Shown: positions 15,875-54,262 of the stretch, one piece after another | How the letters are laid out: each line of letters opens with the position of its first letter | Position numbering within the stretch: position 1 is the stretch's first letter | IMG/VR virus record: IMGVR_UViG_3300000477_000001 | Span: 1 to 54,932 of that record | Source: a virus | Strand: one strand, 5' to 3' | DNA: 54,932 bases | The notes under the pieces: generated by a model | Seen by the model: the letters and a program-made list of their open reading frames with translations, nothing else | Database searches by the model: none | Told to the model about the DNA's origin: nothing | Program-made: the position numbers and the translations under genes

Positions 15875-15883
15875 TATATTATA
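15875..15883 (+). promoter_or_regulatory. TATATTATA promoter-like element (leaderless class)
   Basis: GTATATTATAGACATG: the first T is exactly 12 nt before the ATG of the next gene, with no room for a Shine-Dalgarno. The same 15-base string recurs at 22304-22318. Confidence 0.6.
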
Positions 15884-15886
15884 GAC

Positions 15887-16267
15887 ATGATTGATGAGTT
15901 ACCTGTGCTTCGAAAGAAGGTGTGGTATACACCGAGGAAAGAGGAGCCTTTCGTAGGTATTGCGCATTACAAGATATCTACGATCGACCCAGATCGTCCC
16001 ACGTACCTGACTAAGTACAGGTTAGTTGAAATAGAGATCTCGTTGCAGGTGCTCACAATCCATCTGGAGAAGGGCACCATGCGAGGGCGAATTATAGGTG
16101 ATGCGCCGATTTCGTTCGTTACCGTCGACGGAGGAATCAAGGAGCTTCATTACAACTCTCTCAAAGAGTGGCCTTTGATTACAACTCCAACGGAAGACCT
16201 GCCAATGACCCCGGAGGACTTAGATGTCATTAGGGACACATTGTGTCGAGGGAGGAGACAGAGATGA
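15887..16267 (+). CDS. Hypothetical protein
   Basis: An unrecognised 126-residue protein rich in beta-prone segments. It starts 3 nt after a TATATTATA element and probably opens a new transcription unit with a leaderless mRNA. Its stop overlaps the start of the next gene (ATGA), indicating coupled translation with the primase-like candidate downstream. Confidence 0.7.
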   Translation: MIDELPVLRKKVWYTPRKEEPFVGIAHYKISTIDPDRPTYLTKYRLVEIEISLQVLTIHLEKGTMRGRIIGDAPISFVTVDGGIKELHYNSLKEWPLITTPTEDLPMTPEDLDVIRDTLCRGRRQR

Positions 16268-17283
16268 ACCATTACCAGCTGATAGCTAGCAAAGCCGACC
16301 TGGCTGGTTTCGTTGATGAGGTACTGCCGGCGCCAGAAGGGCAGGAAAGGGATTACCTAGTGTATTTCCTTTCTATGTCGGCCCGGAACAAGTACCTATC
16401 GGATGAACAGCGGGAAGAGATCCACCTCGGCCGTACGGAAATGTTCAACCGAAAAGGGGTTTACGTACCGGAGGATATGACTCCTGGTGAGGCGGTATAC
16501 CGGACTGTGCGAAGGATGCAGGTCCCAGAAGGAGCCTACTTCAACAAGTCTGGCACACATCCGTTGCCAGTGATCCCGTACGTGTTCACCATTTACATGA
16601 ACCTGGATCTGGCCAACACTTTGGAGGCTTGGAACGCTACTGCCAATCAGATGAACGCTACGATCACCGACAGGGCCTTGGATAGGAATGTCCGTATCCC
16701 TAACCCTGAGTCAGTATACCGAACAGAGTTGCAGCGCAGTAAAAAGAAGAAGACGCTGGTGGACACTGATGTTGATGTACCCTTCTTGACTGAGAAGGAA
16801 AGATATCGATTGGCCCTGGCTATGTTTGATGCTTTACAGAAGCACTCGAACCAGTCGCATATGTCTTTGAAAGGATGGATGGTGCGTACTACATCTGGGT
16901 TTCATCTCTTACTGCTGAAGGATGGTATACGGCATGATTTCATGACAACTATCCGGAACGTAGTATTTGAAGAGAGGCTGTTCAGCGGATTACCTGAGCC
17001 CTTCTCTACCCCAGAGCGGGGTTGCCTTACTATGGATGAAGTGTGTAATCATCGCCTTGCGTTACTTGAAGGGAATTCCGTGGCAATATCTTTTGCCAAT
17101 GGCAGGGATGTTCGCCCTCATAAGGTGTACCCGTATGATCCTTCTCTGTGCAAGTGGGAGGTAGAGCCTAACAAAAACCGGATGCTTCCGTTGCCGGGTA
17201 CATACCAACCCACTCACCATCGACTGGTGAAGCAGGGTCACCCACCTAAGTTCGTAGTAACATATGAGCAGTTACATGAATGA
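16264..17283 (+). CDS. Hypothetical protein, weakly primase-like (AEP)
   Basis: I do not firmly recognise this 339-residue protein. Two signatures recall archaeo-eukaryotic primases. D167-x-D169-x-D171 lies in a hydrophobic strand context (LVDTDVDVPF). TSGFH (210-214) is followed by hydrophobics, like the sGxH nucleotide-binding motif. A third acidic motif is not clear. ATG 16264 follows ggaggag at ideal spacing, so it is preferred to the in-frame GTG 16243. It is coupled to the preceding gene and stands before a terminator. No DnaG-type primase is seen in the window, which is mild support for the idea. Confidence 0.65.
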   Translation: MNHYQLIASKADLAGFVDEVLPAPEGQERDYLVYFLSMSARNKYLSDEQREEIHLGRTEMFNRKGVYVPEDMTPGEAVYRTVRRMQVPEGAYFNKSGTHPLPVIPYVFTIYMNLDLANTLEAWNATANQMNATITDRALDRNVRIPNPESVYRTELQRSKKKKTLVDTDVDVPFLTEKERYRLALAMFDALQKHSNQSHMSLKGWMVRTTSGFHLLLLKDGIRHDFMTTIRNVVFEERLFSGLPEPFSTPERGCLTMDEVCNHRLALLEGNSVAISFANGRDVRPHKVYPYDPSLCKWEVEPNKNRMLPLPGTYQPTHHRLVKQGHPPKFVVTYEQLHE

Positions 17284-17333
17284 AGGGATGATTCTTCGAT
17301 CAAGAAACTATCGCGCCAATGTAAAAAAGTGGA

Positions 17334-17363
17334 TCAGCCTCCGACACAGGAGGCTGATTTTTT
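17334..17363 (+). terminator. Strong intrinsic terminator with an SD-like 3' arm
   Basis: TCAGCCTCC (17334-17342) pairs perfectly with GGAGGCTGA (17349-17357) around a 6-nt loop, followed by six T. It ends 4 nt before the nuclease ATG. The 3' arm contains GGAGG, the only Shine-Dalgarno-like sequence upstream of that ATG. Confidence 0.9.
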
Positions 17364-17367
17364 AGCT

Positions 17368-18318
17368 ATGAGTGAATACATAACCGAAGACAAAAAGGGA
17401 CGTAAGAAACTCGCCAAGGGTTACTTCAGCCCTTCCAGATTGAAGACATTGGAAGCCTGTCCATGGCAGTATGAACTGAAGTACAACCGGAAGATCTATC
17501 CATACGAACGGATCATTGAACCTCATAGTGAGTTAGGTAGCGCGATGCACTACTTCGCCGAACACTATGATGGGAGTGGTGACCCACGGAAGATATCTCT
17601 CCTGACTCACAACGCCAAGAACAAGTTTACCTTGGAAGAGGCCCAGCTGGAAGAACTGGATGTCATGATTGACAATCTGGTCAACGGGATCTGGCCTTTG
17701 TTGGAAGGTAAGGGAGAACGAGAATTCTCTTTTACTCCTAAGAAGATTCAGACAGAGGTGAATATCAAAGGCGAGATAATGGTCCCGAGTAGCGATAAGC
17801 AATTTCGGGTAATGCCCCTCAACATGAAGATTGACCGATTGGTCACCACCGAAGATAATCGCCACATCATAATTGACTTCAAGAAAGGTCAGCCTAATAC
17901 TCACCGGCATCTCTTTCAGGTGTTGTTCTATGCGGTTGCCTATTCTCAACGCTTCCGTGTCCTGATCCCCGACATAGAGATCTGGCTAATCTTCCCCAAT
18001 GAAAAGAAGAACTGGATCCGTATCATCGATGGGGCGCAGGTACTGGAGCACGTACAAGACTTTGAAGAGGACCTTAAAGAGAAGTTTGACCTCATTGAAC
18101 AGAAGGCCCCTTTCACCGAAGAGGATGCCCAACCCAGTTTCTTGTGTAACTTCTGTCCGTTTCACGCAACCGACCTCTGTCCAACCACTAAGATGTTGGA
18201 AGGGGCAAAGTATCCGGAGAACGCCGAACGCAAGTTTTACATAGGGAGTTATGTAAAGGGACGGCAAGTAAAGACTCCGGTGAACCCTGAGAAACAGCTT
18301 AACACACCTTCGTGGTGA
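17368..18318 (+). CDS. RecB/Cas4-like PD-(D/E)xK nuclease with Fe-S cysteines
   Basis: A probable DNA exonuclease or endonuclease. It begins with SPSRLKTLEACPWQYELKY, typical of the PDDEXK_1 family, and has H61. The catalytic D156 and D170-F-K172 are present, followed by Q184-xxx-Y188. Four cysteines (C31, C260, C263, C271) have the spacing that holds a 4Fe-4S cluster in Cas4 and AddB. I chose ATG 17368. An in-frame GTG at 17329 would require translating through the terminator and has no Shine-Dalgarno. Its place after UvsX suggests a recombination or host-DNA processing role. Confidence 0.8.
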   Translation: MSEYITEDKKGRKKLAKGYFSPSRLKTLEACPWQYELKYNRKIYPYERIIEPHSELGSAMHYFAEHYDGSGDPRKISLLTHNAKNKFTLEEAQLEELDVMIDNLVNGIWPLLEGKGEREFSFTPKKIQTEVNIKGEIMVPSSDKQFRVMPLNMKIDRLVTTEDNRHIIIDFKKGQPNTHRHLFQVLFYAVAYSQRFRVLIPDIEIWLIFPNEKKNWIRIIDGAQVLEHVQDFEEDLKEKFDLIEQKAPFTEEDAQPSFLCNFCPFHATDLCPTTKMLEGAKYPENAERKFYIGSYVKGRQVKTPVNPEKQLNTPSW

Positions 18319-18340
18319 TTATATCTAATAAGGAGATCGT

Positions 18341-18790
18341 ATGAAGAATACTAAAGTACCCATGAACAAGGTCGTGGTAGCCTCTCGTATTGGGGCTATT
18401 GAACGATTGATCAGTAGCAGTAGTAAAGTGGTTGCGGAGAACTGGAGCGAGATGTTCCAGTGGTATCGGGAGGCCACAAACATCGTATCAAGCTTTGATC
18501 AGGTTCTGCGGGAGATCCATGAAAGCGTAAAGAAGGGATCCCGTACATCGGAAAAGGCAGATCAATTGATCACGCGTCTAATCTCCAAGGATATCCAGAT
18601 GCAAATACCCGACAAAGCCCCTTTCAAATATGAAGAGCTCTTTCCCGAGGTACCTCAGCAGGAAGATCCTCCTACCATCAAGCAGGCCGATGTCTTGGCT
18701 GCTTTGGGCATACTGAAGGTAGGGGATGATAAGAAGGCTTCCGTTACCGCTGATAAGCTGTGGGGTATGATCACAGACGACGAGGAGTAG
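18341..18790 (+). CDS. Hypothetical protein
   Basis: An unrecognised 149-residue protein, largely helical with an acidic C-terminus. It has a good Shine-Dalgarno (aaggag) and lies 3 nt before the HldE-like gene, so it is co-transcribed with the nuclease and the heptose module. No membrane segment or metal motif is seen. Confidence 0.7.
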   Translation: MKNTKVPMNKVVVASRIGAIERLISSSSKVVAENWSEMFQWYREATNIVSSFDQVLREIHESVKKGSRTSEKADQLITRLISKDIQMQIPDKAPFKYEELFPEVPQQEDPPTIKQADVLAALGILKVGDDKKASVTADKLWGMITDDEE

Positions 18791-18793
18791 TTT

Positions 18794-20452: not shown

Positions 20453-20455
20453 GTT

Positions 20456-21658: not shown

Positions 21659-22295
21659 AATGTTGAATGAGTATGCTGGTCAGGTGCAAGAAGCCCTGAA
21701 TGACATCTTCCTGCATGAGGACACCTTTGACAAGCTCCTGAAGATGGCCACTCTTATCCGAGAGGCTTTTTCTCGCGGGAACAAACTTATCATCATGGGT
21801 AATGGGGGCTCGGCGACGGATGCTGATCACATTGCTTCCGAATTTGTAGGTAAGTTCGGTCAACCTAAGCGTCAGGGGTATCCAGCTATAGCCCTAACAA
21901 ATCCTGCTTTCCTTACCGCTTGGGCCAATGACTTCAATTACAATACTACGTTCTCTCGCGCCGTCAATGCTTACATTGCCGACGGAGATGTTGTATGGGT
22001 GTTGTCAACCTCCGGGAACTCACGCAACATCATTACCGCTATTGATTACTTACGGGCTCGTCAAGAGAAGACCTTCTCCGTTATAGGATTTCTGGGGTAT
22101 GCCCTTAGATCCCCTGCCATGGATAATTCTTATCCAGGGGTTGACGTTAACATTCGTGTCCCGTTGTACCATCCATATATGACCTCACAGGAGGCGGAGG
22201 AGACAATGCTCACAGCAATCATTCAGGATGTACACCGAGTGCTGTACCATATGATTGTCATGCATGTCGATATGGAATTAGCCACTAAATCCTGA
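21636..22295 (+). CDS. gmhA: Sedoheptulose 7-phosphate isomerase (GmhA-like, SIS domain)
   Basis: Expected to convert sedoheptulose 7-phosphate to heptose 7-phosphate, the entry step of ADP-heptose synthesis. The SIS domain is clear. MGNGGSATDADHIASEF holds H65 and E69, matching the metal/catalytic H61 and E65 of E. coli GmhA. ALTNPAFLTAWANDF resembles the family's nucleotide-free sugar pocket, and STSGNS (124-129) binds phosphate. A C-terminal helix keeps the expected EE..L..IIQDVHR pattern. A ggaggg site lies in the end of the epimerase gene. A dedicated GmhB phosphatase is not seen. Confidence 0.88.
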   Translation: MLKTADHEMLNEYAGQVQEALNDIFLHEDTFDKLLKMATLIREAFSRGNKLIIMGNGGSATDADHIASEFVGKFGQPKRQGYPAIALTNPAFLTAWANDFNYNTTFSRAVNAYIADGDVVWVLSTSGNSRNIITAIDYLRARQEKTFSVIGFLGYALRSPAMDNSYPGVDVNIRVPLYHPYMTSQEAEETMLTAIIQDVHRVLYHMIVMHVDMELATKS

Positions 22296-22303
22296 AAGGC
22301 AGG

Positions 22304-22312
22304 TATATTATA
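22304..22312 (+). promoter_or_regulatory. TATATTATA promoter-like element (leaderless class)
   Basis: GTATATTATAGACATG, identical to the element at 15875, again with the first T exactly 12 nt before ATG 22316. Confidence 0.6.
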
Positions 22313-22315
22313 GAC

Positions 22316-22627
22316 ATGGAAAAGATCGAAGGACAGAAAGCCGAAATTGGCTCGCCAGGACTTGGGCAGAAGCCTAAAGCAGAGAACCAGGAGAAGCAGG
22401 AGAAGCCGGCTGACAAGAAAGAGCAGCCCAAAAAGCAGACCCTGCGATTTATGACCAGATCACGCCATGGCAACAAGGTTCGAGTAATCGGACCTAACGA
22501 TCCTCCTAATCGCCATGAGCGGCGTCGTCGCGATGCGACCATGCTCCGGAAACCACGGGTAAACAAAGGCCCGAAATCGCAAAGAGCGAACACGCCCGGG
22601 GCATTCGGTCGACAAGGACGTGTGTAA
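22316..22627 (+). CDS. Small basic, probably disordered protein
   Basis: A 103-residue protein rich in Lys, Arg, Gln, Glu and Pro without a hydrophobic core, so probably disordered and nucleic-acid or protein binding. It has its own TATATTATA element and an intrinsic terminator, making a one-gene unit with a predicted leaderless mRNA. I recognise no family. Confidence 0.7.
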   Translation: MEKIEGQKAEIGSPGLGQKPKAENQEKQEKPADKKEQPKKQTLRFMTRSRHGNKVRVIGPNDPPNRHERRRRDATMLRKPRVNKGPKSQRANTPGAFGRQGRV

Positions 22628-22759: not shown

Positions 22760-23320
22760 ATGGGTAGGCAATTGAAGACGGAGAAGCAGAGAGAGAAGCT
22801 GTTGGCAGCGTTATATGGTATCCAAGGAATCACCGAAAAATTAAAAGGTATGGCGTTGCGATATTTTGCGGCTGAGGAGCTTATTGCACTATTTTCACGA
22901 AACCTTCTGTTTGATTCACAAGGGTTTGTTACGCACAAGGAAATGCAAGCGTTTTCGCGCGCACTTTACAATGAGCTTATATTACCCATAACAGGTATCA
23001 AGTGGTCCTCGTGCACGTGTCTAGTTACAGACGAGATGTTTGGGCGAACCTATATAGCTGGCATAATCGTGAGGTTTTTTGATCAGGGGTATACACCGGA
23101 ACAGGTAAGAGAATGGTTTGAACACAATGTCTATCGATATAAATGCAAAGTACCCTCGACATTCAATCAACTGATCAGCAAGGGAGAAGGGGATATAGCT
23201 ATACAGCGAAAACTCATCGAAGGGGCTTTTGAATCTGAAGATGCTTTCCTTCGCGCATACAAAGAGGAATTACGGAAGTTTTATATTAGATGGGCGGAAG
23301 AGCTCCGTGCCATCGCCTGA
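22760..23320 (+). CDS. Hypothetical protein
   Basis: An unrecognised 186-residue, mostly helical, basic protein with ggaaaggag before the start. It stands alone between two promoter-like elements. No motif supports a function. Confidence 0.7.
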   Translation: MGRQLKTEKQREKLLAALYGIQGITEKLKGMALRYFAAEELIALFSRNLLFDSQGFVTHKEMQAFSRALYNELILPITGIKWSSCTCLVTDEMFGRTYIAGIIVRFFDQGYTPEQVREWFEHNVYRYKCKVPSTFNQLISKGEGDIAIQRKLIEGAFESEDAFLRAYKEELRKFYIRWAEELRAIA

Positions 23321-23325
23321 TTATG

Positions 23326-23333
23326 TATATTAT
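23326..23333 (+). promoter_or_regulatory. TATATTAT promoter-like element
   Basis: The element starts 26 nt before ATG 23352. Twelve nt on from its first T begins aggaga, the Shine-Dalgarno of the RNA ligase gene. Confidence 0.55.
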
Positions 23334-23351
23334 CGTTAGGAGACCATCTAC

Positions 23352-24584
23352 ATGTATCCACTGAAGATCCAACAAATGATACAACGTTACGGGTACCACG
23401 ATGCTCACAACATGCTGCGAGGTGAGCCGTGGAATATCGAAATCAAGCAAGAGGAATTTGCGGGGGAGATCCTGTACCTGTACAAGTACAACCAGATCTC
23501 CACTGACTTCTCTCAGCCTGAGAGTAGAGAGGCCCGTGGGTTGATACTCTTTCGACGGCACAATGACAGAGGCATACCACAGCCTGACATCGCCAACATT
23601 GGGTTCGACAAGTTCTTTAACTTCAATGAGCCCAACGCCGATCCCATTGACTTCCGCAAGGCCTACATCTTGGAGAAGGTTGACGGGTCCATCATCAAGA
23701 TCACTCGTATAGGGAATGACTTGCTCATCTCTACCAACGGGTCGATCAACGCAATGAACACCGATCTACCTTTTCCTTCCAAGGAGTATAAGACCTTTGG
23801 CCAGCTGGTGAAGGATCACATTAGGCAGGCGGAGTTCGAGGGCGGCTTTGAAGAGGGGATGTCTTATATCTTCGAGCTGGTTGGTCCGCATAACCGAGTG
23901 GTGGTTCCCTATCCCAAGGATGCCCTATATTTCTTGGGCGCACGGAGCAAGGAGACCGGCCGGGAGTACCTCCCCAGTGAGACCCCTTACTTCCTAAGTG
24001 AGTTTCGTACACCGAAGGTCTTCACCCATCCGAACAAGAGTTCAAGTGAGGAAGTGCAGAGGGTGCTGGAGCAGATCTGCACCACTTTAGATTGGACTCA
24101 GGAAGGGTTTGTTCTGTTGGAACCCTCGGATGAGGGTAAGTTTACTCGGGTGAAGATGAAGGGTGCCGACTACCTTGTGGCTCATCGGCTGCGCGGGGAA
24201 ACAACTCCCACACCTCGGCGAATCTTGGACATGATCCTAACCGAGTGCGACGATGACTTCATTAGCTACTTCCCCGAGTACCGAGACATGGTGTACGAGG
24301 TAAAGGACAAGCTCCGAGGGTTGATTGAAGAGATCACCATTGACGTCAGGACAATCATCGATGAGGGTTGGGACAAAGTTGAACGAAAGACTTTCGCTAA
24401 CCAGTTCGCCAAGAAGCGAATCGCACCGGCTATTCTGTTTGCCATACGAGACAAGATAGAGGCCGGGGAGAAGCTCTCTTCGTGGGACAACCCTAACAAG
24501 GTCCAGGAGCTACTTGTAAACAAGTTGTCCAATGACAAGATTCTTTCTCTCATGGACAAGCTCGCCGACGAAGGATTGATATAG
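23352..24584 (+). CDS. rnlA: RNA ligase, T4 Rnl1 type
   Basis: An ATP-dependent ligase that seals RNA breaks, classically host or phage tRNAs cut in the anticodon loop. The adenylated lysine is K109 in motif I (KVDGS, 109-113). Upstream RGLIL and downstream EGFVLLEP (motif IV) and RVKMKGADYL (motif V) match Rnl1. The C-terminal helical region resembles the tRNA-specific domain of Rnl1. The gene has its own promoter element and lies 4 kb from a polynucleotide kinase-phosphatase, its usual partner. Confidence 0.92.
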   Translation: MYPLKIQQMIQRYGYHDAHNMLRGEPWNIEIKQEEFAGEILYLYKYNQISTDFSQPESREARGLILFRRHNDRGIPQPDIANIGFDKFFNFNEPNADPIDFRKAYILEKVDGSIIKITRIGNDLLISTNGSINAMNTDLPFPSKEYKTFGQLVKDHIRQAEFEGGFEEGMSYIFELVGPHNRVVVPYPKDALYFLGARSKETGREYLPSETPYFLSEFRTPKVFTHPNKSSSEEVQRVLEQICTTLDWTQEGFVLLEPSDEGKFTRVKMKGADYLVAHRLRGETTPTPRRILDMILTECDDDFISYFPEYRDMVYEVKDKLRGLIEEITIDVRTIIDEGWDKVERKTFANQFAKKRIAPAILFAIRDKIEAGEKLSSWDNPNKVQELLVNKLSNDKILSLMDKLADEGLI

Positions 24585-27369: not shown

Positions 27370-27388
27370 CCCCCTCGTTAAGAGGGGG
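27370..27388 (+). terminator. Hairpin between RNA ligase and next gene
   Basis: CCCCCTC (27370-27376) pairs with GAGGGGG (27382-27388) around GTTAA. There is no T run, but a promoter element begins 4 nt later, so it could insulate the two units. Confidence 0.45.
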
Positions 27389-27392
27389 CTGT

Positions 27393-27400
27393 TATATTAT
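27393..27400 (+). promoter_or_regulatory. TATATTAT promoter-like element
   Basis: It directly follows the hairpin and begins 49 nt before ATG 27442, giving the longest predicted leader of the set. Confidence 0.5.
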
Positions 27401-27441
27401 TCCCGCAACACCAAGGACAATGTTCTTGTGGGAGGGGTAAC

Positions 27442-27681
27442 ATGTCAGTACAACTACATTCTTTCTCGGATGAATCATTCCTGAGAGAGAACACCACCGT
27501 CTATCGTATTTATCAGTACATGGACCAAGGGATCACCTACCTATGTGTGACTTGTCATCAACCTTTTACCGGCTCTCAGGAATACGTCATAGCTCAAGGG
27601 TTTTCACACATACATACTCTATGTGAATACCTACGGCAGAAGGGAGTTGTGTCAACTTGTTTGGACAAGCTTTCTGCTTAA
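27442..27681 (+). CDS. Small Cys/His protein, possible zinc finger
   Basis: A 79-residue protein with CVTCHQPF in the middle and HIHTLCEYL near the end, a C-x2-C ... H-x-H-x2-C pattern that could bind zinc. It has a gggaggg site and promoter-like elements on both sides. No family is recognised. Confidence 0.65.
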   Translation: MSVQLHSFSDESFLRENTTVYRIYQYMDQGITYLCVTCHQPFTGSQEYVIAQGFSHIHTLCEYLRQKGVVSTCLDKLSA

Positions 27682-27704
27682 TCCCCATTTTGTTGTGATT
27701 TCTG

Positions 27705-27713
27705 TATATTATA
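27705..27713 (+). promoter_or_regulatory. TATATTATA promoter-like element
   Basis: It starts 22 nt before ATG 27727 of the kinase-phosphatase gene. The predicted leader of about 10 nt contains only a weak purine run. Confidence 0.55.
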
Positions 27714-27726
27714 GTCGGAAAGAATT

Positions 27727-28842
27727 ATGCGAACAGTGAAGTTTATATTCCCTGTCGGGCTACCGGCCAGCGGAAAGAGTACGTGGGTGAGAGAAGAAGT
27801 AAGCAGGCTCAGTAACGAAGAAGGAGTGGCCTGTAAGATATACAGCTACGATTTGTATCGTAAGCAGGTACCTTACAGGGACATGACTGACATCCAGAAG
27901 CGCGAGAACCTGATCAAGGAGCAGCTTCGGACTGATCTTCGGAACCTACTCGCAGCCTACGGGCGTAAGGACGTGCTTGCGGATGCACATACCTTCTACA
28001 TCTTCATCGACAACACCAACTTGAGTGAAAAGTCGGTGAGCAAGCTAACTCACTTTATCAACACCACATGCGAGGAGTTGCAAAAGGAAGCAGAGGATCC
28101 GTGGCAGCATTGCTTCGAGTTCAATTGGTCCTTCTTGGATGTTGATCTGCATACCTGCCTCATTCGTGATGAGGAGCGTGAGGGGCGCGTAGGCCCGAAG
28201 GTAATCCTTCGTATGTACAACCAGCATGTGACCAAGATAAAGCGTGGGGACATCGATGCCAAGCGTAAGGCTTTTGCCCAGCAACTATGGTGGGCGAAGT
28301 TCGATGCCCCGGCTCATGCCAAGCATACGATCGTGGTTGACATCGACGGAACCTTAGCCCTCATGGGCAATCGTTCCCCTTACGATGGGTCTAAGTACTA
28401 CGGGGACAAGGTCAACCATCCGGTTGCTCATCTCGTGGAAAACTGGGTGGCAGGGCAGATAATGCAAGGGCTCAACGCTCACGTGGTATTCCTTTCCGGC
28501 CGAGAGGCCACGGAAGAAGGTGTACGTGGGACTCGTCAGTGGCTGGAGGATTTCTTCTTACCCCAGATCTGGGCAGTGGAAGAAGAGGGGGAATTCCGGA
28601 AGGAAGATCATCCTGAGTATCCTCGGTACGGTGAGTTCACTTGGGAGCTGCACATGCGGAACGAAGGTGATCATCGCCCCGACAACGTGGTGAAGGAAGA
28701 GATGTTCGATGGGTTAGGTATCTGGCCCTCGGAGGATCTTGAGTACGTTCTGTACTTCATTCTGGATGACCGAGACCAGGTCGTCAACATGTGGAGGAGC
28801 AAGGGACTGCCGTGCTTCCAGGTGGGTCCAGGTAACTTCTAA
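27727..28842 (+). CDS. pseT: Polynucleotide 5'-kinase / 3'-phosphatase (T4 PseT-like)
   Basis: Heals RNA or DNA ends so that a ligase can seal them, adding 5' phosphate and removing 3' or 2',3'-cyclic phosphate. The kinase P-loop GLPASGKST is at residues 11-19. The C-terminal HAD phosphatase begins with DIDGT (205-209) and has LSGRE and ILDDRDQV as later motifs. The kinase-then-phosphatase order equals T4 Pnkp, with extra residues in the phosphatase (371 versus about 300). It sits 400 bp from one RNA ligase and 3 kb from the other. Confidence 0.93.
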   Translation: MRTVKFIFPVGLPASGKSTWVREEVSRLSNEEGVACKIYSYDLYRKQVPYRDMTDIQKRENLIKEQLRTDLRNLLAAYGRKDVLADAHTFYIFIDNTNLSEKSVSKLTHFINTTCEELQKEAEDPWQHCFEFNWSFLDVDLHTCLIRDEEREGRVGPKVILRMYNQHVTKIKRGDIDAKRKAFAQQLWWAKFDAPAHAKHTIVVDIDGTLALMGNRSPYDGSKYYGDKVNHPVAHLVENWVAGQIMQGLNAHVVFLSGREATEEGVRGTRQWLEDFFLPQIWAVEEEGEFRKEDHPEYPRYGEFTWELHMRNEGDHRPDNVVKEEMFDGLGIWPSEDLEYVLYFILDDRDQVVNMWRSKGLPCFQVGPGNF

Positions 28843-30539: not shown

Positions 30540-30880
30540 TAGTAACAGGCGGCAGGGACTACCAAAACCCCAGCAGGGTATTCAAGGTGTTGGATGAGAT
30601 TCACCGGACCGAAGGTATAAGGGTAGTGGTCCATGGCGCCTGTCCAAGAGGGGTAGATACCTATGCTCACCTGTGGGCAATGAAGAATCAAGTACACATT
30701 GAACCTCACCCAGGTGAATGGAACAAGTATGGGAAAGGCGCCGGACATAAGCGTAACCGACTTATGGCCCAGTTAGGCGCAGATCTGTGTGTGGTGTTCC
30801 CCGGAGGTAGAGGAACACAGAACATGCTTGGGAATGCTATCGAGCATAATATACCTTATAGGATTGTATCAGATGAGTAG
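30524..30880 (+). CDS. SLOG-family protein (DUF2493/YspA-like)
   Basis: A small Rossmann-like protein beginning VIVTGGRDY, then VVHGACPRGVD, GKGAGHKRNRLM and CVVFPGGRGT. These are the hallmarks of DUF2493, a SLOG family predicted to bind nucleotide-derived ligands. The 118 residues are a complete domain. It overlaps the HAD gene by 16 nt and the phosphoesterase gene by 8 nt, so the three are co-expressed. The ligand is unknown. Confidence 0.85.
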   Translation: MGLRVIVTGGRDYQNPSRVFKVLDEIHRTEGIRVVVHGACPRGVDTYAHLWAMKNQVHIEPHPGEWNKYGKGAGHKRNRLMAQLGADLCVVFPGGRGTQNMLGNAIEHNIPYRIVSDE

Positions 30881-34266: not shown

Positions 34267-34298
34267 GTTTTTTGTGCCCCACCTTAGCCTAGGGGTTG

Positions 34299-34306
34299 TA
34301 TATTAT
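34299..34306 (+). promoter_or_regulatory. TATATTAT promoter-like element (leaderless class)
   Basis: GGTTGTATATTATTATCATG: first T exactly 12 nt before ATG 34311, with no Shine-Dalgarno. A C4/G4 hairpin precedes it. Confidence 0.6.
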
Positions 34307-34310
34307 TATC

Positions 34311-34820
34311 ATGAGCAACGGAAAAACAGTCGAAAGAATCAGTGACTTGTACGTCGGAGACATTGTTCGCCACAAGGCCCGGAAGACCCTGAATTTCAAG
34401 ATCACCAAGCGCCTTGGTCGAACGAGCCTTGCGATGCAGCGCTGTGACATGGCTGGCAACGTCGATAGCCGCTACAAAGGATATCGAATCGGTCCGTCGG
34501 ATGTTTCCAAGGGGTATATTACCCTGGTGAAGAAGGTGGATGAAACTTCCGCCCCTGAGATCGAATTCACCGAAGCTCCGGTGAAGAAGCAGGTAACCCA
34601 GGGTGTGACTGTTGACCAGCTGGAAGAGAAGGACATCCTTCGTTCCCACGTCAACATCATCGCCGAATTCCGACGCCTTGAGGCGCAGCTTTCCCCGGAG
34701 AACCTCACCTGCGATGGTGAAGCTTCGGCCAATCAGGTCGCGTTCCTTAAGAAGCAGATCATGGATAAGTGGGCCCTTCTCGAGGCTTACGTCGGCCAGA
34801 AGGTGGAGCCGGTAGTATAA
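34311..34820 (+). CDS. Hypothetical protein
   Basis: A 169-residue unrecognised protein, basic at the N-terminus and helical at the C-terminus. The in-frame TTG 15 nt upstream lies inside the promoter element, so ATG 34311 is the start. The gene has its own promoter-like element and terminator, so it is a one-gene unit with a predicted leaderless mRNA. Confidence 0.75.
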   Translation: MSNGKTVERISDLYVGDIVRHKARKTLNFKITKRLGRTSLAMQRCDMAGNVDSRYKGYRIGPSDVSKGYITLVKKVDETSAPEIEFTEAPVKKQVTQGVTVDQLEEKDILRSHVNIIAEFRRLEAQLSPENLTCDGEASANQVAFLKKQIMDKWALLEAYVGQKVEPVV

Positions 34821-35453: not shown

Positions 35454-35476
35454 CCCCATGTTAACGTTACCGGTTG

Positions 35477-35485
35477 TATATTATA
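35477..35485 (+). promoter_or_regulatory. TATATTATA promoter-like element
   Basis: GGTTGTATATTATA starts 25 nt before ATG 35502. The predicted start point (+12) is at agggag, the ribosome site. Confidence 0.6.
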
Positions 35486-35501
35486 GGCAGGGAGATTAAC
35501 A

Positions 35502-36089: not shown

Positions 36090-37445
36090 ATGATTACAGA
36101 GCGCACCCAACCTCGTGATGTTATCACCGATGAGCAATTAGCGCAGGTAGAGAAATACATAGATCGCCTGTACGACAACCTAGGGTTAGACGTGGAGTTT
36201 AGTAAGCATTTCAAACAAAGGGTGCGAGATGAGCGCAACATACGACCTATAACCGCGGCCGAGCTTGTGCGTCTGTTCAAGCAGGTATATAAGCGATATG
36301 GTAAGAAGATCGCCCAACTCACTGATGAGGCGGAGATGGTCTTGCGTGACATGAAGACAGATATCAATGTACCAGTGGCCTTGAACGTTGATGAAAATGG
36401 TGATGTTCACATGATGGCTGGTAAGACTATCATGCGTAAGGATGACTTCCGTACATCCAATCCTGTGTTGGCTGTGGAGAACGTACATCGGTCACTAATT
36501 AACATGCCAGTACCAAACCCAAGAGACAATGAATCCCAGCAAGACTTCCACTCACGTTGTATGAGTAAACTCGTTGGGGACGAAGACTACGATCAAGACC
36601 AAGCGAATGCTATCTGCTACGGCAAGTGGGAGGAAAGCGTGACACGTAATAACCCGAAATCAATCCTGGAGAAGATTTCCCCACAGCGAAACCTGGAAGA
36701 GGGTATCAACTCCGATACCGTGTCCAAGAAGTTCTTTGAGCAGCTGCTCGATACAATAGAGGCCTTGGAAGATGAAGAGGGCTTGGATGATGACGAACGA
36801 TGTCGTCTAATGGCCCAGCTCATCAATGCCGAGGCTAAGAAATACATGAAGCCAGCTCAATGGAAGAAGGTTGTGGCTAAGCTCCATGACAAGCACAATG
36901 GAGGTGGGGAACAACCCCTGACTGAACCTGCTCCAGAAGGTGAACCTGCACCTACTGGTACTCCAGGTGGGTGGCCGTCACCTGTTTCACGTCCAGGACG
37001 ATTTGAATCCAAGCGCGTGGAAGAGGTAGCCCCTGCGGTAGAATTCTTCACTGATCCTACAACCGGTAACGTACAAGCTCGCATGGCAGGTAAAACTCTC
37101 GATCTCAAGTCATTCGTACAGAAAGCAGGAGAGCATGAAGAGGTCGCCAATCTCATACGCGCCCTCCAGAATCGAATCGAAGGTGAGGGTTACCACCCCA
37201 AACAAGACTTCAAGCCCTTCATCAAGAAGTACCTGTATAAGAAGGACGAGAACCCAGATGTGATCGTTCGGAGTCATCCTGAGAAGGATACTATGACTGC
37301 GCAATTTGATGAGGACGAGATTGAAGGCGCAATGGAAGAAGACGAGTTCTTCGCATCCATTATGGGTGAGGCCAATAATACCGACGACCTGTCGGACAAA
37401 TCCTTACTCGAGAAACTCAAGCAAGTATTGATAGACGAGTCCTAA
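36090..37445 (+). CDS. Hypothetical phage protein, possibly virion or head related
   Basis: A 451-residue protein. The N-terminal 110 residues (VEKYIDRLYDNLGLDVEFSKHF, then FKQRVRDERN, KQVYKRYGKKIAQL) resemble conserved hypotheticals of T4-like phages. Around residues 150-180, FHSRCMSKLVGDEDYDQDQANAICYGKW resembles segments found in phage head-maturation or portal-linked proteins. A Pro-rich linker near 275-310 and an acidic C-terminus follow. It starts directly behind a terminator without a ribosome site. Its stop overlaps the stop of the convergent membrane-protein gene. Confidence 0.7.
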   Translation: MITERTQPRDVITDEQLAQVEKYIDRLYDNLGLDVEFSKHFKQRVRDERNIRPITAAELVRLFKQVYKRYGKKIAQLTDEAEMVLRDMKTDINVPVALNVDENGDVHMMAGKTIMRKDDFRTSNPVLAVENVHRSLINMPVPNPRDNESQQDFHSRCMSKLVGDEDYDQDQANAICYGKWEESVTRNNPKSILEKISPQRNLEEGINSDTVSKKFFEQLLDTIEALEDEEGLDDDERCRLMAQLINAEAKKYMKPAQWKKVVAKLHDKHNGGGEQPLTEPAPEGEPAPTGTPGGWPSPVSRPGRFESKRVEEVAPAVEFFTDPTTGNVQARMAGKTLDLKSFVQKAGEHEEVANLIRALQNRIEGEGYHPKQDFKPFIKKYLYKKDENPDVIVRSHPEKDTMTAQFDEDEIEGAMEEDEFFASIMGEANNTDDLSDKSLLEKLKQVLIDES

Positions 37446-37822
37446 GACTCGTCTATTTCCTCTTCCTGATTGTCCCACTTACTCAGGTCATGCTTCTCTT
37501 CGAAGGTCGGCATTGGTTCTAGACTCTTATCCGAATCTCCGAAGTAATAGTTAATCACTGACCCGAAGAAGGCACCCGTAAGAGCGGATACCAGGGCGAT
37601 AACCACGTCCCGGTTACCACTTGGAATGTCACGTGTGAATAGGAAGAACATACATCCTATAACGATGACCGCAAGTATAGAAGCGAACACAATTCGTATA
37701 TAAGACTTGCGGCGTGTAGACTGAGCATACATGTCCATCTTACGTTCAAGGAACTCCAACCGCTTCATTTCATAATGAATCCGAAGATCCAACAATTTTT
37801 CTTTCCACGTCTGTTCTGCCAC
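37442..37822 (-). CDS. Two-span membrane protein, holin candidate
   Basis: A 126-residue protein with a charged N-terminal helix (1-38) and hydrophobic spans near residues 41-62 and 73-92. The sequence between and after them (ALVSALTGAFFGSVINYYFGDS) resembles the end of three-helix holins of phages and gene transfer agents. The tail is acidic. Shine-Dalgarno aaaggag is well placed on the minus strand, behind an ACTAATTA copy. The holin call rests on resemblance and topology only. Confidence 0.6.
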   Translation of the reverse strand: MAEQTWKEKLLDLRIHYEMKRLEFLERKMDMYAQSTRRKSYIRIVFASILAVIVIGCMFFLFTRDIPSGNRDVVIALVSALTGAFFGSVINYYFGDSDKSLEPMPTFEEKHDLSKWDNQEEEIDES

Positions 37823-37838
37823 GGGTTTTCTCCTTTAG

Positions 37839-37846
37839 TAATTAGT
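37839..37846. promoter_or_regulatory. ACTAATTA gap motif (minus-strand reading)
   Basis: It is placed 17 nt upstream of the membrane-protein start. A GCCCCA/TGGGGC hairpin lies next to it at about 37850-37868. Confidence 0.3.
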
Positions 37847-37872
37847 GTGCCCCATCTCTTTTGTGGGGCGTG

Positions 37873-37880
37873 TATATTAT
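37873..37880 (+). promoter_or_regulatory. TATATTAT promoter-like element (leaderless class)
   Basis: GTATATTATGAACATG: first T 12 nt before ATG 37885, matching the other leaderless cases and favouring that ATG over the one at 37879. Confidence 0.6.
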
Positions 37881-37884
37881 GAAC

Positions 37885-38184
37885 ATGACTAGGATCAATG
37901 TAAAGGTGTACGGATTGAAAGGCGCAGATGGAACGGGCCGGGTAATGCAGCTCCCCATCGATGCCACAATCATGGAGAGAGATTACAACCCCTGTTACGA
38001 TCGGGTTGTTGTTCCCGATACCACGGATGAGGGGTTCGATCCTATCCAGCAGCTTATGCACTTCAACAAGATCGTCGGACCGATGTTTGACGGCGACTAT
38101 TGGATTGATCCTTCGACGGGTGAAGAGCTGAAGGTCATGAATCGATATGAGACCATGGCCCTCAGCCATGAGCTGTCTATATAA
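37885..38184 (+). CDS. Hypothetical protein
   Basis: An unrecognised 99-residue protein with beta-prone N-terminus. Its start is set by the fixed 12-nt distance from the TATATTAT element. It is followed 10 nt later by a small membrane protein gene. Confidence 0.7.
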   Translation: MTRINVKVYGLKGADGTGRVMQLPIDATIMERDYNPCYDRVVVPDTTDEGFDPIQQLMHFNKIVGPMFDGDYWIDPSTGEELKVMNRYETMALSHELSI

Positions 38185-39348: not shown

Positions 39349-39425
39349 GGCGCCTTTGCGCGTTGGCGCCTGATTTGGGTCCCTAAAAAGTTACAACGTA
39401 TGTCCCCACATCTCTCCTTCGGTTG

Positions 39426-39433
39426 TATATTAT
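39426..39433 (+). promoter_or_regulatory. TATATTAT promoter-like element
   Basis: GGTTGTATATTATT starts 23 nt before ATG 39449. The predicted start point is at aggagg, the ribosome site. Confidence 0.6.
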
Positions 39434-39448
39434 TAGCAGGAGGATACG

Positions 39449-39874: not shown

Positions 39875-39890
39875 GTTTAACCAACATTTA

Positions 39891-40319
39891 CTAAACCCTA
39901 CCTTCGTGGTAGGGTTTTTTATGCTTGCGCTCCGTTACTTTGCCCTTGTCTTTCTTCTTGGCATACTTACGCAGCTGTTGTAAGAATGTAGGAACGTCAA
40001 CCACTTCCACACTGCCTATCATGTCGTCTCTGTCGTAGCTGCCTTTATAGGCCTTCATAGCCTTCTTTTTAGAGTCGAACCCAATGAGACACTTGTCTTC
40101 GTCGTACTCTCGCGTGCCGGGCTTTACCTGATGCACCACGTATACGTTACTTGCGTTGTCGGGATTGGGGCCTAAGAAGACATCCAGATAGTCCCCATCA
40201 ACGGCATCTAACCCATTGATATAGCCATAGTCGGCTTTGAGTTGAGTGCGCCACCTGTTACCATCTGGGTCAACCCCTTCTCGGTACGTACCGGCCTTAT
40301 TCTCAATGTGTATAGGCAA
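39891..40319 (-). CDS. Inorganic-pyrophosphatase-like domain protein of phages
   Basis: This 142-residue protein matches the phage InPase-like domain. IHIENKAGTYREGVDPDG, then DYGYINGLDAVDGDYLDVFLG, VYVVHQV and DEDKCLIGFDS are its usual landmarks. In many phages the domain is fused to head-morphogenesis proteins; here it stands alone. The acidic DGDYLD resembles a pyrophosphatase metal site, so hydrolysis of PPi or a structural role are both possible. A basic tail ends in the terminator hairpin. Confidence 0.75.
   Translation of the reverse strand: MPIHIENKAGTYREGVDPDGNRWRTQLKADYGYINGLDAVDGDYLDVFLGPNPDNASNVYVVHQVKPGTREYDEDKCLIGFDSKKKAMKAYKGSYDRDDMIGSVEVVDVPTFLQQLRKYAKKKDKGKVTERKHKKPYHEGRV
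39893..39920 (+). terminator. Intrinsic terminator, overlaps the end of the converging gene
   Basis: AAACCCTACC (39893-39902), TTCGT loop, GGTAGGGTTT (39908-39917), T run. Read on the minus strand, the same hairpin encodes the last residues (KPYHEGRV) of the converging gene. Confidence 0.9.
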
Positions 40320-40357
40320 TCCATGCCACGTTGTCTTAGCTTGTATCTGGTGATCCC

Positions 40358-40367
40358 ACTAATTAGT
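40358..40367. promoter_or_regulatory. ACTAATTAGT gap motif
   Basis: A complete 10-bp palindrome between the diverging genes at 40319 (minus) and 40430 (plus). Confidence 0.35.
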
Positions 40368-40402
40368 AACATCAGCAATACCCACGCGCCAGCGCGGTTT
40401 TG

Positions 40403-40410
40403 TATATTAT
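40403..40410 (+). promoter_or_regulatory. TATATTAT promoter-like element
   Basis: TTTTGTATATTATCG starts 27 nt before ATG 40430. The predicted start point is at aaggag, the ribosome site. Confidence 0.6.
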
Positions 40411-40429
40411 CGAAAGGAGTAAACACGTC

Positions 40430-48008: not shown

Positions 48009-48380
48009 ATGGCATTTCTTAATCATGATGTTCTTGACGATGGACTTCGAGTACTGACCACTTACGTAAACCGCGTGGACATTTGCTCTCAGCTTCCTTC
48101 AAACTACGGAGAAGCAACGAGCGACTATTCATTAGGTCGTTACGTAGGGCATAGTGTAGGAGATCCCGAGCCAGGTGATCCCAATGGTCGTCAAGTGGAA
48201 TCTGCGGCTGTTGAAGACGGAAGCGTTACAGATACTGGCGAAGCCACTCATTATGCTTTGGTTGATACAAACAACACCCGGCTTCTGGCAGCAGGTAGTC
48301 TGACTAACCCGCAGGTGGTGACAGATGGAAACGATTTCACCCTGACACCATTCACAATCCGTATTCCGGATGCTCAGTAA
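48009..48380 (+). CDS. Virion-associated protein, common phage type
   Basis: 123 residues. The course (AFLNHDVLDDGLRVL, then DICSQLP, ATSDYSLGR, TATHYALVD-like ATHYALVDTNNTRLL, and FTIRIPD at the end) is that of a small conserved family found near head and tail genes of many phages. It is probably a capsid decoration or neck component. Ribosome site aaggaga. It opens the plus-strand structural series. Confidence 0.65.
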   Translation: MAFLNHDVLDDGLRVLTTYVNRVDICSQLPSNYGEATSDYSLGRYVGHSVGDPEPGDPNGRQVESAAVEDGSVTDTGEATHYALVDTNNTRLLAAGSLTNPQVVTDGNDFTLTPFTIRIPDAQ

Positions 48381-48405
48381 GCCTAGACTTACTTGAGGAG
48401 GTTAT

Positions 48406-48903
48406 ATGACTAAAAACGAACTACTACAGGATCTCGCTGGGCGCTCTTTTATCAAAGCTGTTGGAGATCCCGTTCTTAGGGAAGTCAAAGATGTGGGTGC
48501 TACTTGGTATACTGTCAATGTAGCTGAAACCTTCCAAAATACCGCGGTATTCCGGAACATAGACTTCTACGTATTCGATGAGGGGGGACCAGAAGAAGAG
48601 GCCTATTACAAGGATCAAGACCCTAAGATGAATGTGGCTCCCTCAGCATTTTCTGATAAGATACGGACCGAGTTCTTTACTGATCCAGACATTAAGGCTT
48701 GGAACATTCGGACCTCAGACGAATACCATAAGGCCGCGATCGTAGAGGCACTGATTGAAGATCCAGAGGACCCAGAGGCTGTTACACCTACATTGTTTTT
48801 GGTAGGAGAACACCCTGAAACTGAGGAGCTGGTGCGCATTAGGATATCAGGAATCTCTACAGACGTTATCGCGCAAACGGCCAATCTTCCTATGGTAAGA
48901 TAA
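48406..48903 (+). CDS. Hypothetical structural-region protein
   Basis: 165 residues, acidic, strand-rich at the start and end, not recognised. It has a gaggagg site and lies between two virion-type genes, so a structural role is likely by position only. Confidence 0.65.
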   Translation: MTKNELLQDLAGRSFIKAVGDPVLREVKDVGATWYTVNVAETFQNTAVFRNIDFYVFDEGGPEEEAYYKDQDPKMNVAPSAFSDKIRTEFFTDPDIKAWNIRTSDEYHKAAIVEALIEDPEDPEAVTPTLFLVGEHPETEELVRIRISGISTDVIAQTANLPMVR

Positions 48904-48915
48904 AAAGGATAGGGC

Positions 48916-51912: not shown

Positions 51913-51924
51913 GGTAACCTGACT

Positions 51925-53094
51925 ATGCAGATGGATCGAATCATTGATTTCCTACTCAACTACATGCCTTCCCGACGAAGGGATACATGGGTTTACCTTG
52001 GACAAAACATAGCCACGAACGAGACCCCAAACTACTTCGCCGGACTTGTATATAGGATCGATGCACCTGCCTCCGCAGTCAATGGCTTCTTTATTCTTTG
52101 CACCGAGAATGTATCCACTCCTGTCGACTGGGACATGTATGACTATGTTAACAATGAGCTGCAGCGCACAGACACCCTTCATGTACCCAGCGAATTCTTA
52201 GTTGTTCTTACCAAGAGCGACCGAGATGCAATTACAGAACCCTACGATCCTAACTTCGTTCCCTTCTTAGGGATGCTCGAATTTGAAGATACGGGGGAAG
52301 ATCAATATCCATCTGTCATCATCCCTGAGCATGAGCTTCATATCATCCTTAGAGATGCGGGCATACCCTTTGTCAAGTGGGAAGAGTTGGAATACGATGT
52401 GCGCACTATGCGCTACCTTATCGTCCGCCCCGCAGTAGAGCAATTCTACAAGTACTTCCCTATCATTGAACATGAGACCATTCCTGTACAAGCCCAGGGG
52501 CGCTTTGAGAAGGAGTTGCCTAAGGATCCTAACTTCATTCATGTAAGGGCTGTCTTTGGTACCAACGCCTCTCAAGCCGCACAAGGATCAGGAATGGGTA
52601 ACCCGTTCCAATACTACCGAGACCAGATGATCGGTGGATTGTTCATGGGTGGGCATGCCTTCGGGCGACCACAAGGACGCCCTGGACGAGCTGGGCGTAT
52701 AGCGCGAATGGCTTTCAATCACAACGACATTGTTAGCAACTTACATCATCAAGCAGTGTACAATAGCATGCTCAACCGATACGCGCGGATCAAGTATACT
52801 ATCAACGGAAACAAGGTTGAAGGGTATCATACCGGTGCTCGTTATGTTACCATTGAATGGGGGTATATGAGCGATGATTGGGAAGACATCCCACATGATC
52901 GTAAACTTGAAGTACGTGAGTTAGCCGCCGCTTACGCTCTTCGTACCTTTGGTAATCTTCGATTGCAAACCCCTGACAACTCTCCTGGCAAGGTAGACTA
53001 CTCAAGATGGATTGAACGAGCTGGAGAGCTAGAAGAGAAGATTCTTACTCACTGGCATGAGTTCACCAAGCCTATTGTGGTTAGGAACCGCTAA
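51925..53094 (+). CDS. Hypothetical virion structural protein
   Basis: 389 residues, soluble, with a Gly/Arg-rich flexible loop near 245-265 (GRPQGRPGRAGR). The first half shares a theme with the preceding protein's last domain: STPVDWDMYDYV here and FTPVDWSKYEIT there, each followed by a PDE/TKSDRDAI helix. The two may therefore carry the same fold and bind each other. It is placed with tail/neck genes; no exact function is recognised. Confidence 0.7.
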   Translation: MQMDRIIDFLLNYMPSRRRDTWVYLGQNIATNETPNYFAGLVYRIDAPASAVNGFFILCTENVSTPVDWDMYDYVNNELQRTDTLHVPSEFLVVLTKSDRDAITEPYDPNFVPFLGMLEFEDTGEDQYPSVIIPEHELHIILRDAGIPFVKWEELEYDVRTMRYLIVRPAVEQFYKYFPIIEHETIPVQAQGRFEKELPKDPNFIHVRAVFGTNASQAAQGSGMGNPFQYYRDQMIGGLFMGGHAFGRPQGRPGRAGRIARMAFNHNDIVSNLHHQAVYNSMLNRYARIKYTINGNKVEGYHTGARYVTIEWGYMSDDWEDIPHDRKLEVRELAAAYALRTFGNLRLQTPDNSPGKVDYSRWIERAGELEEKILTHWHEFTKPIVVRNR

Positions 53095-53102
53095 TTAGCG
53101 GT
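53087..53102. promoter_or_regulatory. ACCGCTAATTAGCGGT, extended gap palindrome
   Basis: A perfect 16-bp palindrome containing the CTAATTAG core and overlapping the stop of the previous gene, 61 nt before the next start. Confidence 0.4.
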
Positions 53103-53162
53103 CCGCTAACACATCCATAGACATGATTTTACTCTCAGTATGAAATGGGAAGGAGAATCACC

Positions 53163-53411
53163 ATGCCGACACAAGACTCTACAACAGGACCCGCTAAGCC
53201 GGGCATGTTCACACATGTGGAAGAGACTATGGACCCGTTGGTTGCGTCCGTCACGGAGATGCACGATGAGGCCGTCCACTATGCAGTACTGGCGGAAAGG
53301 TATCGTACGGCATTGATTATGGTTGCTGGCGGCAATGAAATAAGTGCAGACACTCGTGAGGTCATAACAGCTTTACTAGGCAAGGAAATGCCGAATGAGA
53401 ACGGTGAATAA
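53163..53411 (+). CDS. Hypothetical protein
   Basis: An 82-residue helical acidic protein, not recognised. ATG 53163 follows ggaaggag at good spacing. It overlaps the phosphoesterase gene by 17 nt. Confidence 0.65.
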   Translation: MPTQDSTTGPAKPGMFTHVEETMDPLVASVTEMHDEAVHYAVLAERYRTALIMVAGGNEISADTREVITALLGKEMPNENGE

Positions 53412-53955
53412 GAACGTCTTCTTCGCGGCAGACCCTCACCTTCATCATGCTAACATCCTCACCTTCAAGAAAGATGATGGTACCCCATTAAGGGACTTCA
53501 AGACCATTGATGAGATGAACGTATACATCATTGAGGCCTACAATTCTGTGGTCAAACCCGATGATAAGTTATACATCTTGGGTGATATGGTAATGAAGGA
53601 CAGTGCGTGGGCTCATGAGATCTTGGGTGAGATCAATGGAGAGAAAATCCTAATTCGCGGGAACCATGATCGCGCCAAGTTATCTATCTATGCCCGATAC
53701 TTCAAAGATGTACGTAGTGAGATCACTTACCGGCTAGCCAATGGCCAACATGTCATCTTTACCCATCGCCCGGTTGTCCTTCATGAAGACCACAAGCTTG
53801 TGTTCAACGTTCATGGACACACCCACCATAAACACCTGGACGACTGGAGGTATTACAATTTGTGTCCTGAGGTCGCGGGATATGTACCCTATAGTTGGGA
53901 CTACCTGCATAAGGTGTTTATGGAGACGTTGAAGCAGAAAGGTCTTCTTCATTAG
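53395..53955 (+). CDS. Small calcineurin-like metallophosphoesterase
   Basis: Metal-binding motifs in order are ADPHLHH, GDMV, RGNHDR and HGHTHH, all in 186 residues, a minimal phosphoesterase. Such phage enzymes are often 2',3'-cyclic or nucleotide phosphodiesterases. It lies immediately before the RNA gene cluster, so a role in RNA end processing is conceivable. ATG 53395 lies in the end of the previous gene; GTG 53404 is an alternative start. Confidence 0.85.
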   Translation: MRTVNKNVFFAADPHLHHANILTFKKDDGTPLRDFKTIDEMNVYIIEAYNSVVKPDDKLYILGDMVMKDSAWAHEILGEINGEKILIRGNHDRAKLSIYARYFKDVRSEITYRLANGQHVIFTHRPVVLHEDHKLVFNVHGHTHHKHLDDWRYYNLCPEVAGYVPYSWDYLHKVFMETLKQKGLLH

Positions 53956-54201
53956 TCCCCAATTTTTTTTTGTACTGGATTGGAATCACTACGAGGCAGG
54001 TGGGGACATTGTAATGTACAAGCTTCACATCCCTTCCAGTGGTGCAACACCGGTTTGATGAGGTGCTGTGGATTTCTTCCACTAAGTAATAACATGATAC
54101 AGGTAATGCAACGCCAGCAGAATAACAATCTCGTCTTCGCCAATGAAGATTGGAATAGGGAGAGAAGTGTGCGGCGTTAAGGGTTACCCTTTATGAGATG
54201 T
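53956..54201. other. Gap before the RNA cluster, no confident gene
   Basis: This stretch begins with a run of nine T (53962-53970) and has no frame with a ribosome site. The longest plausible ATG frame (54094-54180, 28 codons, MIQVMQRQQNNN...) lacks one. An unrecognised leader or remnant is possible. Confidence 0.4.
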
Positions 54202-54229
54202 AACGTCGCCACTAGGCGACGTTTTTTTT
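54202..54229 (+). terminator. Intrinsic terminator
   Basis: AACGTCGCC (54202-54210), ACTA loop, GGCGACGTT (54215-54223), T run. It separates upstream transcription from the RNA cluster promoter 25 nt later. Confidence 0.92.
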
Positions 54230-54253
54230 GCCCCGCTATGATATGCCTACAAG

Positions 54254-54262
54254 TATATTATA
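54254..54262 (+). promoter_or_regulatory. TATATTATA promoter-like element of the RNA cluster
   Basis: AAGTATATTATAGCATAG lies just after a terminator and ahead of the tRNA-like genes, with no coding gene behind it. The predicted start point is near 54266. Confidence 0.6.

Follow-up and report, generated by a model that had tools for sequence, protein, structure and literature searches.

A probable bipartite TATATTAT promoter class, most likely phage-specific, in a T4-like phage without close known relatives

The 8-nt word TATATTAT recurs in the gaps between genes of IMG/VR virus record IMGVR_UViG_3300000477_000001, which raises the question of what kind of signal it is and what reads it. The window analyzed here, a stretch of 54,932 nt, is nearly the whole of that 54,974-base record. 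A sequence-only reading of the window had likened the word to the single-box late promoters of phage T4, and had proposed that a sigma factor encoded at 2719 reads it, with transcription starting about 12 nt after its first T and four messenger RNAs (mRNAs) left leaderless. The explanation favored here is that eleven sites (class I; Table 1) probably form a single phage-specific promoter class, early or middle, whose specificity is supplied by the phage and whose transcripts start at an AUG or a Shine-Dalgarno sequence. The promoter role, start site, timing and reader are proposed from the motif, its statistics, its placement and its fixed distances.

TATATTAT occurs 12 times on the plus strand of the window and once on the minus strand, a total of 13 against a mean of 1.25 and a maximum of five in dinucleotide shuffles. 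The 9-mer GTATATTAT, with ten plus-strand copies and one minus-strand copy against 0.4 expected, is the most over-represented of the window. The word is present at all eleven coordinates named in the sequence-only reading, preceded by G at ten of them, as had been claimed for nearly all, and by T at 27393. All eleven copies are intergenic and on the plus strand, ten upstream of genes and one upstream of RNA genes; intergenic sequence makes up 6.4% of 8-mer positions, and the probability of this placement is about 8e-13 (Fisher P 0.007 when set against other 8-mers of equal composition). Of the 12 copies on the plus strand, ten have a start codon no more than 90 nt downstream, and such upstream zones cover 9.6% of the window. 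The remaining two copies, at 777 (plus strand) and 30846-30853 (minus strand), lie within genes and are about as many as chance gives; neither has the upstream C box described below, and both were excluded from the class for that reason.

Evidence for a second element came from aligning the eleven sites, which had been selected without reference to the position of any C box, on the first T of TATATTAT. C occupies position -22 at ten sites, -21 at all eleven and -20 at ten, and these 31 of 33 entries form the best three-column, one-letter block. Among 3,000 draws of eleven random intergenic positions the maximum was 23 of 33, and none reached 31. The C box is CCC or longer at nine sites, mostly CCCCA, and complete CCCC runs start at -23 or -22 relative to the first T; a one-base shift is typical of -35/-10 spacing. 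When the window is scored with a matrix of both elements, the eleven sites reach 18.8-25.5, the next best score is 13.5, inside a gene, and the minus strand does not exceed 10.0. From this gap and the minus-strand maximum it follows that the element is bipartite, oriented and nearly all-or-none. The earlier statement that no -35 sequence is shared is therefore not borne out, given a CCC(C) located 20-23 nt upstream of the box, and the element has the make-up of a bipartite promoter, its -35/-10 geometry being of sigma type, and not of a single box of the T4 late kind. If so, the case shows how a box taken for a lone T4-late-like element can prove to be half of a bipartite promoter once an overlooked second element is added. 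At three of the sites, CCCC is also an arm of a CCCC...GGGG inverted repeat in the spacer (27370-27388, 34277-34295 and 37849-37869).

Twelve nucleotides past the first T, the base is A (+1) at eight of the eleven sites and the base before it is C (-1) at eight, and C/A is a usual bacterial initiator; this signature agrees independently with a start 12 nt after the first T. The first T lies exactly 12 nt before an ATG at 15875, 22304, 34299 and 37873, as had been noted from the sequence, and the same distance leads to AGGAG or AGGGAG at 23326, 35477, 39426 and 40403. The site at 27705, which the earlier reading did not count among these, leads to GGAAAG. The predicted start thus falls on an ATG at four sites and on the first base of a Shine-Dalgarno sequence at five, the exceptions being 27393, with a longer leader, and 54254, upstream of RNA genes. 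Register and initiator together support the proposal of a promoter class starting about 12 nt after the first T, and they fit leaderless mRNAs at four genes, where the 5' end would be the A of the AUG. The four open reading frames (ORFs) concerned score as coding in frame from end to end; within the first 20 codons the in-frame signal is clear for two of them, 15887 and 22316, but only marginal for the other two, 34311 and 37885. A check of the four for other starts with a Shine-Dalgarno sequence found no strong one, and ORF 37885 has a weak alternative at codon 11. A Shine-Dalgarno sequence of at least four bases accompanies 42 or more of the 60 gene starts in the window, with start choices uncurated, indicating that initiation from such a sequence is the norm.

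These regularities also bear on the suggestion that the word reflects chance or composition, or that it is an element other than a promoter, such as an operator or replication site. The word is plain and AT-rich, and two copies do lie in genes, but the excess over expectation is large and strand, gap, C box and start-codon register are all concordant, so that this explanation is very improbable.

The architecture would be, in order, CCCC(A), a spacer of 18-19 nt counted from the last conserved C, (T)G-TATATTAT, and a C/A initiator where transcription starts, 12 nt past the first T. The C box would then lie at about -35 to -31 and the T box at -12 to -5, an arrangement that matches a sigma-type RNA polymerase holoenzyme. 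In such an enzyme TATATTAT would be melted by a region-2-like domain, and a second DNA-binding domain placed at -35 would recognize CCCC instead of the host TTGACA. Specificity would come from the phage, whether through a sigma factor of its own or through an activator that works with host sigma, and transcripts would start at the AUG of the four leaderless genes or at the first Shine-Dalgarno base of the other five. A phage-supplied specificity is most likely because the C box does not look like any customary host -35 and none of the genomes searched has the motif repeatedly. The class is most likely a new phage-specific one of an already known general kind. If this is correct, an orphan phage has a promoter code, CCCC/TATATTAT, unrepeated in the genomes searched, with leaders of zero length or consisting of a bare Shine-Dalgarno sequence; the promoter and its reader would be a compact orthogonal pair, and the leaderless genes a natural test of leaderless phage mRNA translation. 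Leaderless transcripts are reported as common in phages in the study of phage AR9 (PMC5312081), so this feature alone is not new. A bolder idea, which we regard as doubtful, is that nearly every message of the class starts at an AUG or Shine-Dalgarno sequence, a phage factor with a C-rich -35 code having fused promoter and translation signals; near-zero leaders would then extend across a whole temporal class.

Searches of other genomes address whether the promoters belong to the host. At -35, where a host sigma-70 promoter would have TTGACA, there is a C-rich box. A strict form of the bipartite pattern, which has two matches in the 55-kb window, gave 21 scattered matches among bacterial and archaeal genomes totalling 257 Gb (about 85,000 species genomes); no record had more than one, and they did not cluster by taxon. 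These matches suggest that it is not a common promoter of any sampled host group. Scans of viral contigs gave single matches per record, taken as chance, and nowhere in the bacterial and archaeal genomes or viral contigs searched was the bipartite motif repeated within a genome. The two conserved elements occupy -35 and -10 locations, as in bipartite phage-sigma promoters of the 7-11 and SPO1 kind, and are unlike the promoters of all sampled genomes.

Several observations weigh against a phage-specific bipartite class. The site at 22304 has only CC and that at 23326 only TCC, and the CCCC of the three hairpin sites might be part of the terminator of the upstream gene. The apparent invariance of the box is partly a product of selection because the sites were picked by exact TATATTAT; the matrix scan found no convincing member with a C box and a one-mismatch box. 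The searches described below turned up no relative that shares the motif. Finally, the sites could be early promoters of the ordinary kind, used by an unmodified primary sigma factor from an unusual host with a C-rich -35 preference. Early promoters that use host sigma can be strict and numerous in phages, the genes served are early-like, and canonical sigma-70 promoters are not enriched (17 against 23 expected in the 36-54.9 kb scanned). This is nevertheless unlikely, since the strict motif is unrepeated in any of the roughly 85,000 species genomes, although the host may be unsampled.

The genes served offer an indication of timing. Small orphan genes, an RNA ligase/tail-fibre attachment gene, a polynucleotide kinase gene and transfer RNA (tRNA) genes lie downstream of class I sites, which come after gene ends or, often directly, after terminators and begin transcription units on the plus strand only. 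The site at 54254 follows a terminator (54202-54223 plus a T run) and lies upstream of tRNA genes, in agreement with the sequence-only reading. No class I box was found upstream of the terminase, portal-like and other minus-strand structural genes. This non-structural content makes the class look early or middle, which is probably its timing. One specific form of the favored explanation is sigma appropriation as at T4 middle promoters, where a host -10 is combined with a phage MotA box, centered at -30, that replaces the -35 (PMC2988021). Here the host primary sigma factor would bind the -10 and a phage activator would bind CCCC. TATATT matches TATAAT at five of six positions, the two systems share a -10 with a non-host box in the -35 place, and the genes served, RNA ligase and kinase among them, resemble T4 prereplicative genes. 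However, the MotA box has a GCTT core and tolerates change beside a host-type -10, whereas in the window CCC(C)A occupies about -35 to -30, with the C box (about -35 to -31) slightly upstream of the MotA box center and a -10 much stricter than a host -10. No MotA- or AsiA-like protein was recognized among the window proteins, and we consider this form rather unlikely.

Like class I, the T4 late promoter, TATAAATA read by gp55, has a strict AT-rich 8-mer that precedes the start by about 12 nt. The T4 promoter has no -35 and serves structural genes, whereas class I has a -35-like CCCC box and structural genes lack the motif; the late single-box analogy of the sequence-only reading is therefore not supported, and a T4 late promoter is ruled out by the -35 box, by a box that is TATATTAT and not TATAAATA, and by gene content. 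An archaeal TATA box is also ruled out, as 12 nt to the ATG is too short by what is generally known of archaeal promoters. A second word, CTAATTA, rather than TATATTAT, appears to resemble a T4-late-style single-element class. It is over-represented (16 copies against 2.9 expected, both strands) and, as a motif chosen post hoc, lies at most 90 nt upstream of a start at nine of 11 places (P about 3e-8). Among the genes it precedes are the sigma-like gene, the polymerase gene, a helicase-loader gene and, on both strands, genes of structural type; no -35 partner was seen at its sites. Written as (C)ACTAATTA, this second word is often palindromic, lies just 5' of gene starts on either strand and is a candidate late promoter or operator. 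The gaps 39875-40423 and 37446-37884 likely contain minus-strand genes (39891-40319 and 37442-37822), with CTAATTA upstream on their own strand.

Similarity is also seen with the early promoters of virion-packaged multisubunit RNA polymerases in phiKZ-like jumbo phages. The early box of phiKZ is TATATTAC and that of OBP and N1M2 is KATATTAT (PMC7058600), while the AR9 early consensus, read by the virion RNA polymerase, is AAATATATATTAT-6N-G (PMC5312081). The window 8-mer has the same sequence as the AR9 consensus at its 3' end, and is very close to the other boxes and of the TATATTAC/T-like type that marks phiKZ promoters; boxes of the TATATTAT/C form in these phages are likewise strict and serve early genes. 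While this resemblance would fit promoters of such a polymerase, phiKZ-like promoters are a continuous AT-rich block, or have TTTCARR beside it, and lack a C box at -35. Their start is also farther downstream: AR9 transcription starts 6 nt past the box, a distance that cannot be accommodated in the window, where a start codon follows at 4 nt. The 55-kb record, probably incomplete, has no match to the RNA polymerase beta/beta' domains PF00562 or PF00623, and its genes are T4-like (portal, UvsX, SbcC), not phiKZ-like. We therefore judge this origin quite improbable.

The identity of the reader is best considered through the ORF at 2719. Amended to a bipartite promoter, the model of the sequence-only reading becomes another specific form of the favored explanation, in which region 2 of the ORF product would bind TATATTAT and a region 4-like helix-turn-helix would bind CCCC. 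By eye the protein contains SFDP...WF.QYLK followed by a helix-turn-helix. It matches NCBIfam TIGR02937 at model positions 34-163 of 165, covering regions 2 to 4, with an E value of 0.017 in the protein library and 3e-4 in a six-frame search, where it is the only match. With a profile of nine gp55 proteins it is the best of 60 window proteins (E 0.0034; next 0.53), and no other ORF of the window is sigma-like. A region 4 would be needed for a -35 element, and the helix-turn-helix, being region 4-like, hints slightly at a bipartite promoter. Phage 7-11 provides a precedent, with late bipartite promoters GTAAtg-(16)-aCTA and a proven reader, the sigma factor SaPh711_gp47; phiEco32 has a single box (PMC8948821). 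Like class I as interpreted here, the 7-11 promoters are phage-specific and bipartite; they start 6-9 nt from the downstream element and stand, in about eight copies, before transcription units. The two differ in that the window class is CCCC-(18/19)-TATATTAT, serves early/middle-like genes and has only a candidate reader. The middle promoters of SPO1 are read by gp28, a phage sigma factor with its own -35 and -10, but their consensus sequences are unrelated.

Assignment of the ORF 2719 product as reader is nonetheless tentative, a possibility short of even chances. The TIGR02937 score, 14.9 bits, is far under the cut-off of 42.9; PF04542 and PF04545, the Pfam models for regions 2 and 4, have no match in the record, and the ORF has no Pfam or PHROG match at default threshold. 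A structure predicted without an alignment was too poor to use (pLDDT, the predicted local distance difference test, 38). The ORF lies near a gp46/SbcC-like gene and the DNA polymerase gene, and gp55-type sigma factors adjoin or lie close to gp47 in several phages; the gp46-like neighbor points slightly to a late role, that of gp55. Since CTAATTA is found ahead of structural genes and also of the sigma-like gene, the protein could read CTAATTA instead. It may read class I, CTAATTA or neither.

Table 1. Positions of probable class I promoters and other features in the window (spacing and starts as predicted from sequence)
Feature	Position	Strand	C box	TATATTAT box	Predicted start	Remarks
Class I	15852..15887	+	CCCC 15852-15855	15875-15882	15887, A of ATG	Predicted leaderless
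Class I	22282..22316	+	Weak CC 22282-22283	22304-22311	22316, A of ATG	Predicted leaderless
Class I	23304..23338	+	TCC 23304-23306	23326-23333	23338, A of AGGAG
RNA ligase/tail-fibre attachment gene	23352-24584					Downstream of promoter 23304..23338
Class I	27370..27405	+	CCCCC 27370-27374 (GC hairpin arm)	27393-27400	About 27405	Longer leader, ATG at 27442
Class I	27683..27717	+	CCCC 27683-27686	27705-27712	27717, first G of GGAAAG
Polynucleotide kinase	27727-28842					Downstream of promoter 27683..27717
Class I	34277..34311	+	CCCC 34277-34280	34299-34306	34311, A of ATG	Predicted leaderless
Class I	35454..35489	+	CCCC 35454-35457	35477-35484	35489, A of AGGGAG
Class I	37850..37885	+	CCCC 37850-37853	37873-37880	37885, A of ATG	Predicted leaderless
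Class I	39404..39438	+	CCCC 39404-39407	39426-39433	39438, A of AGGAGG
Class I	40381..40415	+	CCC 40381-40383	40403-40410	40415, A of AGGAG	ATG 40430
Class I	54231..54266	+	CCCC 54231-54234	54254-54261	About 54266
RNA genes of last promoter	54457..54659	+				Probable tRNA 54457-54578; tRNA-Ala(TGC) 54586-54659
Sigma-factor-like ORF	2719..3948	+				409 amino acids; weak region 2 and region 4 similarity
(C)ACTAATTA	2679, 3944, 6845, 47941, 51897, 53090	+
(C)ACTAATTA	33990, 37846, 40367, 42636, 45150	-
Terminase-like gene	249-2687					LAGLIDADG homing endonuclease domain inside

The record is probably an incomplete fragment, and its gene set is that of a T4-like tailed phage without a close known relative. 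This set includes the C-terminal part of a DNA polymerase A, an SbcC-like gene, a UvsX-like recombinase, thymidylate synthase, RNA ligases, a polynucleotide kinase, DnaB/DnaC-like genes and a weak match to the T4 portal. Searches of viral contigs with the sigma-like ORF, terminase and portal-like protein, and of bacterial genomes with the sigma-like ORF, found no relatives. A tblastn search of 50,697 phage records with the sigma-like ORF, the portal-like protein and others gave no match, and a UvsX query returned only loci about 22% identical and without the motif. The first RNA gene downstream of the last promoter, missed by ARAGORN, has an Rfam tRNA match below the gathering score. It has an unusually long variable region and the anticodon loop CTGCTAA, and is likely Ser-GCT. 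The LAGLIDADG domain inside the terminase-like gene is likely an intein. Adjacent GTP cyclohydrolase and QueD-like genes at 12999-14740 suggest a DNA modification of the 7-deazaguanine type.

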